NCBI RefSeq assembly: GCF_021533195.1
Contig: NZ_JAJNKB010000002.1
Coordinates: 310,001-374,000, forward strand
DNA length: 64,000 bases
Origin: Portibacter marinus
GTDB taxonomy: Bacteria > Bacteroidota > Bacteroidia > Chitinophagales > Saprospiraceae
Direction of reading: 5' to 3'
The translations under genes and the position numbers were made by a program. The notes under the pieces are model-generated. The model ran no database searches and was not told the DNA's origin. It saw nothing but the letters and a program-made list of their open reading frames with translations. Below, piece after piece: positions 37,140 through 39,999 of the stretch. Position 1 is the first letter of the stretch, and every line of letters starts with the position of its first letter.

Positions 37140-38305
37140 TGCTCTTCTTTAAATTTTCTGATTCTTTCAAATGCTTCGTTGATCAACGCTGTTGGTTGGC
37201 AAAGTGAAATTCTGATATATTGATCTCCGTTGCTTCCGAAAATATTTCCAGGTGTTAAAAAGACATTCGCACCGTATAAAACCTGATCTGCTAAAGCCTT
37301 TGCATCCTTATGTTGCTCATTAATTTTAGCCCAAAGAAACATGCCACTCTGATCCCCTTGGTATTGGCATTCTAACAATTCAATAATTTTTTCTGCCGCT
37401 TTTTTACGTCGAAGATATTTTTTGGTTAGAGACGCATACCAGTGATTGCCTGCCTGCAAAGCAGCGATAGCACCATCCTGTATGGCTCTAAACATACCAG
37501 AATCCATATTGCTCTTAAATTTCAGAACTGTCTTGATGTATTCGGAACTGCCTGCTAGCATTCCCACTCTCCATCCTGACATATTATGTGACTTACTCAA
37601 AGAGTTAAGTTCCAGCGCACACTTTTTACTGTCTTCAATACTAAAAATGCTGAAAGGATCAGGGTTCAGTATAAAACTGTAGGGATTATCGTGACAAAGT
37701 AGAATTTCATTTTGGATACAAAATGCTATTACTTCCTCCATAACGTCTCTGTCAGCTCTGGCCCCAGTAGGCATGTGAGGATAATTAATCCACATCAATT
37801 TTATCTTTGCAGTATCCAGAGATTGCAATTCCTCTATATTTGGCAACCAATTGTGTTCTTCCTTTAAGTTGTAATAAACACAAGTTGCCCCACTCAGCTT
37901 TGATGCAGATGCATAGGCTGGATATCCCGGATTAGGAATTAACACTTTATCACCCGATTCGAGAAAGCTCATGCTGATGTGCATAATGCCTTCTTTAGAT
38001 CCTATTAATGGCAGTATCTCTGTCGCTGGGTTCAAACTGACATCGTATTTTCTTATATACCACTCAGCAAAAGCAGCACGCAATTCAGGGCTGCCGGTAT
38101 AGGACTGATAACCATGATTCGATTCATCATTTGCAGACGCATTTAATGCATTGACAGCAGCCAAAGGTGGTGGTAAATCCGGTTTACCTATACCCAAATT
38201 GATCACATCTTTTCCATCCGCATTCATCTGCGTCACTTCCCTCAGTTTGTGCGAAAAGTAATATTCCTGTACATGATCCAGTCGACTGGCAGGTTTAACT
38301 ATCAT
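37136..38305 (-). CDS. Class I/II PLP aminotransferase (aromatic amino acid branch)
   Basis: A pyridoxal-phosphate enzyme of the aspartate aminotransferase fold I. Landmarks: VINLGIGKPDLPPP, GSKEGIMHISMSFLESGD, WINYPHMPTGA, and the PLP-lysine segment LNSLSKSHNMSGWRVGML. By position between prephenate dehydratase and prephenate dehydrogenase it probably transaminates phenylpyruvate and 4-hydroxyphenylpyruvate (inference). The frame opens at 38332, but the ATG at 38305 (MIVKPASRLDHVQ) leaves a shorter overlap with the upstream gene and a normal N-terminus. Confidence 0.9.
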   Translation of the reverse strand: MIVKPASRLDHVQEYYFSHKLREVTQMNADGKDVINLGIGKPDLPPPLAAVNALNASANDESNHGYQSYTGSPELRAAFAEWYIRKYDVSLNPATEILPLIGSKEGIMHISMSFLESGDKVLIPNPGYPAYASASKLSGATCVYYNLKEEHNWLPNIEELQSLDTAKIKLMWINYPHMPTGARADRDVMEEVIAFCIQNEILLCHDNPYSFILNPDPFSIFSIEDSKKCALELNSLSKSHNMSGWRVGMLAGSSEYIKTVLKFKSNMDSGMFRAIQDGAIAALQAGNHWYASLTKKYLRRKKAAEKIIELLECQYQGDQSGMFLWAKINEQHKDAKALADQVLYGANVFLTPGNIFGSNGDQYIRISLCQPTALINEAFERIRKFKEEQ

Positions 38306-39155: not shown

Positions 39156-39190
39156 AAAAATGAAAAGGGAGCTCTCATATGAGAACTCCC
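39156..39190 (-). terminator. Attenuator terminator of the Phe/Tyr operon
   Basis: On the minus strand GGGAGTTCTCAT pairs with ATGAGAGCTCCC (one mismatched or wobble position) and is followed by TTTTCATTTTT ending at the pheA start codon. A competing upstream segment ATGAGAACT (39223-39215) can pair with its 5' arm AGTTCTCAT and act as antiterminator. That segment overlaps the leader-peptide stop codon, so a ribosome that finishes the leader would mask it and let the terminator form. Confidence 0.88.
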
Positions 39191-39219
39191 GTCGTATTTA
39201 ATTCATATACATGAAGTTC

Positions 39220-39285
39220 TCATTCCCACTTTCCGTAAAAGTAAAAGAAGAAACAGAAGCATGTATTTTGTGTAATTGTATTCAT
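39220..39285 (-). CDS. Phe/Tyr-rich leader peptide (attenuator)
   Basis: A 21-codon ORF, ATG at 39285 and TGA at 39220. Residues 9-17 read C-F-C-F-F-F-Y-F-Y, followed by G-K-W-E. Five Phe and two Tyr codons lie within eight codons, matching the products of the operon it precedes. Ribosome stalling here when charged tRNA-Phe or tRNA-Tyr is scarce would leave the antiterminator segment free. It is too short for routine gene calling. The ATG is only about 5 nt from the expected transcript start. Confidence 0.88.
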   Translation of the reverse strand: MNTITQNTCFCFFFYFYGKWE

Positions 39286-39293
39286 TTCGGGGT

Positions 39294-39324
39294 CAAACTT
39301 ATCTTTTATTTCTGAAATACAAAA
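39294..39324 (-). promoter_or_regulatory. Promoter of the Phe/Tyr operon
   Basis: Minus-strand TTTTG (39324-39320), an 18-nt spacer, then TAAGTTTG (39301-39294). This matches the Bacteroidota -33/-7 consensus TTTG-N17-23-TAnnTTTG. The remaining upstream region to 39519 is AT-rich with no other recognised element. Confidence 0.8.
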
Positions 39325-39519: not shown

Positions 39520-39999
39520 TTAGACATCAAAAATGACCCAGCCACTATCAGGATCATTTCCTTTTTTTGACAATCCAGCTAGAATTTTCCATTCATGATT
39601 CGCATTGATTCCCCGATAGGTTCCGGGAACATTGGGGGGAATAAGAAATTCCGCATCCCATTCATATTCTCCATGAGCTTCCAAACGAAAGTTTTGATCT
39701 ATGACCAACTCCTCTTTATAAGATGTGGCATATGCTGTTTTAGTGCTTCCACCAGATTTCCCAACTCGATGACCTGATCCATGAACATGACTCCGATCTC
39801 GATATCTGACCATCTCTTCTGCATGCAGCTTTACGTAAAGTTTGTCGACTAAAATACCATGTTCCTTTATTTGACAAAGGATTTTCAGTCTAACCAAACC
39901 TTCTGTATGTACAGCGGAATTATCTATGGCTAAATGTAACTCAGCTCCGGTACCCGTAATGTAGTCCTTGAATTTTTTTAGTTTGTCGAAAAATCCCAT
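39520..39999 (-). CDS. Hypothetical protein, arrestin/Spo0M-like beta-sandwich
   Basis: A 159-residue soluble protein with no signal peptide. The alternating beta-strand pattern (VRLKILCQIKEHGILVDKLYVKLHAEE) and the end segment FLIPPNVPGTYRGINANHEWKI resemble the arrestin-like/Spo0M family of predicted beta-sandwich scaffold proteins. A basic, glycine-rich loop (GSGHRVGKSGGSTK) is in the middle. Biochemical function is unknown. It lies upstream of the Phe/Tyr promoter on the same strand and is divergent from the ankyrin-like gene. Confidence 0.6.
   Translation of the reverse strand: MGFFDKLKKFKDYITGTGAELHLAIDNSAVHTEGLVRLKILCQIKEHGILVDKLYVKLHAEEMVRYRDRSHVHGSGHRVGKSGGSTKTAYATSYKEELVIDQNFRLEAHGEYEWDAEFLIPPNVPGTYRGINANHEWKILAGLSKKGNDPDSGWVIFDV

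Follow-up and report, generated by a model that had tools for sequence, protein, structure and literature searches.

A predicted leader-peptide attenuator ahead of the phenylalanine-tyrosine operon of Portibacter marinus, and its serial forms in Saprospiraceae

What decides whether the genes for phenylalanine and tyrosine synthesis are transcribed in Portibacter marinus? The locus lies within the window, i.e. the whole stretch of 64,000 nt that was analysed, which is part of a 902-kb contig of a 5.19 Mb genome in 65 contigs. Its four enzymes form the pathway that leads from DAHP entry and chorismate to both Phe and Tyr:

39155-38295, minus strand: pheA, prephenate dehydratase with an ACT-like C-terminus (PF00800, E 7e-54)
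38332-37136, minus strand: class I/II aminotransferase (PF00155, E 2.8e-57)
37139-36300, minus strand: tyrA, prephenate dehydrogenase (NF006307, 353 bits against a cut-off of 295)
36292-35225, minus strand: DAHP synthase-chorismate mutase fusion (PF00793 and PF01817, both above cut-off)

The TTG start listed for the aminotransferase overlaps pheA, and an ATG near 38305 is the more likely start. The order pheA-aminotransferase-tyrA-DAHP synthase/chorismate mutase is preserved in 34 of the 65 relatives that have at least 3.5 kb of downstream sequence, and the first and the last gene mostly still occur together in the others. The PheA protein of the window is 86% identical to that of a congener genome. 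Directly upstream of the control region described below, at 39520-39999 (minus strand), a 159-aa protein is encoded for which neither Pfam nor NCBIfam gave a match at E 0.001.

The region ahead of pheA

A sequence-only reading of this DNA had described, on the minus strand, a short reading frame with Phe and Tyr codons, an antiterminator segment, a terminator whose U-tract runs up to the pheA ATG, and a promoter. All of these were found to be correct to the base:

39324-39320, minus strand: promoter element -33, TTTTG, 18 nt from the -7 element (sequence)
39301-39294, minus strand: promoter element -7, TAAGTTTG, of the TAnnTTTG type (sequence)
39285-39220, minus strand: leader peptide ORF MNTITQNTCFCFFFYFYGKWE, 21 codons and a TGA stop (sequence, conservation)
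39258-39235, minus strand: regulatory codons F-C-F-F-F-Y-F-Y, the likely segment 1, which may pair with segment 2 (sequence, minimum-energy fold)
39223-39213, minus strand: segment 2, the 5' half of the antiterminator, ATGAGAACTTC, spanning the leader stop codon (covariation, fold)
39190-39179, minus strand: segment 3, GGGAGTTCTCAT, i.e. the 5' arm of the terminator and two loop bases, pairing with segment 2 or segment 4
39176-39167, minus strand: segment 4, the 3' arm of the terminator, GAGAGCTCCC (terminator call, fold)
39190-39167, minus strand: terminator GGGAGTTCTC-ATAT-GAGAGCTCCC, 10-bp stem and 4-nt loop (terminator call, fold)
39166-39156, minus strand: T-rich tract TTTTCATTTTT, adjoining the pheA ATG at 39155-39153 (sequence)

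Segment 2 includes ATGAGAACT (39223-39215, minus strand), which overlaps the leader stop codon, and begins 11 nt past the last Tyr codon of the leader. The hairpin at 39190-39167 is the sole terminator-like site between 38000 and 40500; the T-rich tract that follows it is interrupted. The terminator fold has a free energy of -18.4 kcal/mol (z -5.9) and the antiterminator fold one of -14.0 kcal/mol (z -3.4), each of them better than all 200 shuffles. Moreover, when the 149-nt region was dinucleotide-shuffled 5000 times, not one leader-plus-terminator unit arose, which excludes a chance origin of the unit in the window. An Rfam scan of the whole window (4227 families, gathering cut-off) gave no match.

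We take TTTTG-N18-TAAGTTTG to be a Bacteroidota-type promoter, going by the -33/-7 consensus. The -7 element ends only 8 nt before the leader ATG, a point absent from the sequence-only reading, and the leader mRNA is therefore predicted to be nearly leaderless. A TAnnTTTG motif ending 4-11 nt before a leader ATG is also seen at a second place in the window (56678-56663, in addition to 39301-39285), at the loci L166 and L001-L003 and at about 20 others, so that the leader mRNAs of these loci should be nearly leaderless as well. For Flavobacterium psychrophilum, a transcriptome study puts leaderless mRNAs at only 5.5% (PMC9723704).

Conservation and proposed mode of action

The occurrence of the element was investigated in 219 distinct pheA upstream regions of Bacteroidota (1 kb where available), sampled across the family, the phylum and a set of named genomes. 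To count as a unit, an ORF could be no longer than 45 codons, had to contain 6 or more F/Y in a stretch of 10 codons and had to be followed by an intrinsic terminator at a distance of 8-120 nt. Such units are present in 179 of the 219 regions, 118 of which have one unit and 61 have two, and F/Y-dense leaders as such in 181; the same search found a unit in 1 of the 219 antisense strands and in none of 1095 dinucleotide-shuffled regions. In 72 of the 118 single and 57 of the 61 tandem regions, the promoter motif TANNTTTG is found in the 60 nt that precede the first leader, at a shuffled rate of 5.8%. Nearly all Saprospiraceae carry the unit. Its frequency is 9 of 12 in regions of the order outside the family and 23 of 25 in regions of the class outside the order, and it drops to 6 of 32 beyond the class. 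The system is therefore old in Bacteroidia and mostly absent elsewhere.

The leader peptides have F/Y content in common and no fixed sequence. Phe and Tyr are both encoded in each of the 240 leaders, with about 60% F, i.e. in a ratio of roughly 60:40. The mixed Phe/Tyr sensor, which had been called unusual, is thus the rule in the phylum. The junction of U-tract and start codon, likewise called unusual, does exist in the window, but it is a local feature: the gap between terminator stem and pheA is 11 nt here as opposed to 34 and 80 nt in two congeners.

Pairing was scored in the 240 units between the stretch after the last F/Y codon and the 5' arm of the unit's own terminator. The mean score of segment 2 with segment 3 is 17.2 for own arms, 13.0 (sd 0.16) if the arms are swapped between units and 11.9 for shuffled sequences. 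There are 93 different types of segment 2 hexamers, which means that we see covariation and not a shared word; trial pairings of segment 2 with arms belonging to another type succeeded in 28%, as compared to 100% for own arms, the own pairs having been pre-selected as strong. A strong segment 2 was found in 213 of the 240 units. In 200 of these its start is 6-16 nt past the last F/Y codon, most often at 12 nt; matches in shuffled sequences show an even distribution over 0-50 nt. According to footprints, a ribosome that has stalled at a codon is expected to reach about 12 nt downstream with its leading edge, so the spacing is ribosome-sized. The alignment test proposed in the sequence-only reading came out in favour of its attenuator interpretation: both the F/Y codons and the alternative 2:3 and 3:4 stems are conserved in the relatives, and the stems covary.

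With this evidence, we are confident that the element in the window acts as a ribosome-mediated transcription attenuator that senses the charging of tRNA-Phe and tRNA-Tyr, i.e. that it is an ordinary regulator of a type already known. Transcription would start shortly before the leader ATG. With an ample supply of both charged tRNAs, the first ribosome would pass the F/Y codons, reach the stop codon and cover segment 2, whereupon segment 3 would pair with segment 4 and RNA polymerase would terminate before pheA. When Phe or Tyr is short, the ribosome would stall on an F or a Y codon with its leading edge just short of segment 2, which would then pair with segment 3 and allow read-through into pheA, the aminotransferase gene, tyrA and the DAHP synthase-chorismate mutase gene. 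We infer that the ribosome stalls, that polymerase terminates or reads through and that the two amino acids act by OR logic, and the cell would most likely make the operon enzymes only when Phe or Tyr is short. On a leader without a ribosome, the pyrimidine-rich F/Y codons may form pairs with the purine-rich segment 2, which would promote termination. The pairing of the leader ORF with segment 2 averages 0.66 as compared to 0.51 in shuffled controls, and 156 of 206 units exceed their own controls; since this is only moderately above the controls, it lends weak support to such a protector (1:2) state.

Leaders of the same design are present in the genome of the window ahead of trpE and hisG. 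The Trp leader belongs to the window itself:

56678-56671, minus strand: promoter of the Trp attenuator, TATATTTG
56663-56598, minus strand: Trp leader MKRNNVNNTAWWWHFRKLDVA with its stop codon, unannotated
56571-56537, minus strand: Trp terminator
56567-50863, minus strand: trp operon, trpE-G-D-C-F-B

The GTG called as the start of trpE (56567) falls inside the terminator, and the ATG of MEKIKIHSN is more likely to be the start. The His attenuator (L166, on contig C64, at about 1209-1321) lies before hisG and consists of the leader MKYITTHTHHHLIVPLQVVS, which ends at a stop codon, and a 14-bp terminator; measurements on His leaders are noisy and were used for promoter spacing alone. Bacteroid-trp RNA (RF01692), which we take to be a trp attenuator, gave no match over the whole genome despite the clear Trp leader, so the Saprospiraceae version falls outside what Rfam covers. 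F-rich leaders before pheS were found in none of 12 genomes.

Could the same anatomy serve another purpose? In the window the stem ends so close to the pheA AUG that the hairpin might mainly block ribosome loading on read-through pheA mRNA, instead of or besides terminating transcription. However, in most relatives, including the two congeners, the hairpin is distant from the start codon while the stem and the T-rich tract are kept. We hold this reading to be very unlikely; a local side effect of the window hairpin on the translation of pheA is possible. The ORF has its own promoter and terminator, as would be the case if it were the gene of a small functional peptide unconnected to the control of pheA, but the variable sequence of the peptides argues against this, as does the position of the unit ahead of pheA in 179 of 219 regions. 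Moreover, a plain peptide gene needs neither a segment 2 that covaries with the terminator arm nor a ribosome-sized distance between this segment and the F/Y codons, and we give this explanation practically no credence.

It is just as improbable that the terminator is under the control of a T-box, another riboswitch or a protein, with the ORF being incidental. T-boxes for Phe and Tyr do occur in other bacteria, but no Rfam family matches in the window, and the approximately 135 nt between the predicted start site and the T-tract are mostly taken up by the ORF and the switch, which leaves little room for a T-box. Besides, the regulatory codons fit the operon product in the Phe/Tyr, Trp and His operons alike. 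A less remote alternative, although still an unlikely one, is that just one of the two, Phe or Tyr, is sensed, with the codons of the other being passengers, and it is true that attenuation of E. coli pheA uses Phe codons only. Against this stands the presence of both residues in every leader, at a similar ratio in single and tandem units; in the window the last two F/Y codons are one Phe and one Tyr, and the operon makes both products.

Serial units in Saprospiraceae

The 61 regions in which two complete F/Y units follow each other are nearly all from Saprospiraceae. When this family is counted by genus (45 sampled), 23 genera are tandem, 20 single and 2 have none. A second unit is absent from the window and from both congeners, which have one unit each; the tandems in relatives had not been mentioned in the sequence-only reading. 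Examples are Flavilitoribacter nigricans, with the leaders MKISLSNNYFYFSFFFYG and then MNLNQHTNFFSFFFYGYFYGSP, each closed by a stop codon, and Phaeodactylibacter xiamenensis, with two units before pheA.

The second leader ATG is mostly located 20-50 nt past the first terminator stem. Since TANNTTTG lies within 60 nt upstream of 57 of the 61 first units and of only 1 of the 61 second units (chance 5.8%), a single promoter is placed ahead of both units, and separate promoters for the two were rejected. A division of labour with one sensor per amino acid was rejected too, the share of F being 0.60 in the first and 0.59 in the second unit.

In the PheA tree the tandem state is scattered over Saprospiraceae (43 of the 74 rows of the clade), with none in Neolewinella and Portibacter. 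An early gain followed by losses is the simplest reading, the count of changes on the unrooted tree (15 for the tandem state) giving no direction. Two tandem loci from Bacteroidales-like genomes (L072 and L090) look like independent gains. At the locus L003, the last 80 nt before pheA contain, past the terminator, AAAGTCC-aatattcat-GGCTTTTT, which resembles a decayed second terminator. This remnant is weak evidence that Portibacter may once have had two units.

In the genomes sampled for the other operons, which are mostly tandem ones, all 14 Trp leaders are single, and so are the His leaders with one exception. This exception is the Saprospiraceae genome L249, where the His leaders MILIQLHQHHHSSIRLLRR and MTCNIHFHHHHAFVEHCKW, both ending at a stop codon, stand in series before hisG with a terminator after each, i.e. 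as a tandem His attenuator.

We therefore consider it probable, with less confidence than for the single element, that the Phe/Tyr operon of Saprospiraceae is controlled by two serial attenuators on one transcript that respond to the same two tRNAs. Read-through would be the product of two probabilities, resulting in lower leakage and a steeper response; this conserved design would be largely confined to the Phe/Tyr operon, and the genus of the window would have a single unit, possibly after loss. With read-through Q1 and Q2 of the two units, expression would be proportional to about Q1 x Q2, so leakage would drop and the logarithmic sensitivities would add. A sensitivity framework for attenuation has been published (PMC1183508), and the serial version in Saprospiraceae allows one to ask whether stacking identical tRNA sensors sharpens the response, as that theory would suggest.

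Comparison with known systems

If the proposed mechanism is right, the charging of tRNA-Phe and tRNA-Tyr would jointly control a shared operon across Bacteroidia, a major environmental and gut group in which amino-acid regulation is little studied. The rule that the antiterminator lies about 12 nt past the last regulatory codon offers a means of locating and annotating leader peptides that are not yet listed. Attenuation has been compared in earlier work across Proteobacteria and some Bacteroidetes/Chlorobi.

The enteric attenuators of E. coli pheA, trp and his likewise have a leader peptide in which the product amino acids are abundant, an antiterminator and a terminator that exclude each other, and an intrinsic terminator before the first gene. 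The element in the window differs from them in that it would sense Phe and Tyr together, in that the regulatory codons themselves would make up segment 1, should there be one, and in its Bacteroidota-type promoter with a leader mRNA predicted to be nearly leaderless. There is no sequence relation detectable by Rfam matching.

Closer in kinship are 5' elements of conserved structure ahead of pheA and hisG that are described, together with clues to leader-peptide attenuation upstream of amino-acid operons, in a paper on the transcriptomes of F. psychrophilum and other Flavobacteriaceae (PMC9723704). The pheA element concerns the same gene and phylum, and the leaders found here in other families of the class follow the same plan; the main text of the paper contains no F/Y leader, antiterminator, survey beyond the family or tandem units. 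A study of five genomes lists candidate short uORFs near shikimate genes in which Phe and Tyr codons stand out (PMC6429828, Fig. 6b), and these resemble the window leader in having F/Y codons before shikimate-pathway genes. Bacteroid-trp RNA is, as the window element, a candidate cis-regulatory RNA of Bacteroidetes, but for Trp and not for Phe/Tyr.

As regards the serial form, a literature search, mostly of freely accessible papers, turned up no published example of leader-peptide attenuators that stand in series and sense the same amino acids, and the tandem arrangement in the relatives would be a new variation on leader-peptide attenuation. Two leader ORFs with attenuators in one operon are known from Salmonella mgtCBR, where they respond to two different signals and work without intrinsic terminators (PMC3641672), and from mefA/msrD, where the second one controls only the second gene in what the authors call a 'double-lock' (PMC10314930). 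In contrast to both, the two units of the Saprospiraceae pairs would sense the same amino acids, and both lie ahead of the first gene.
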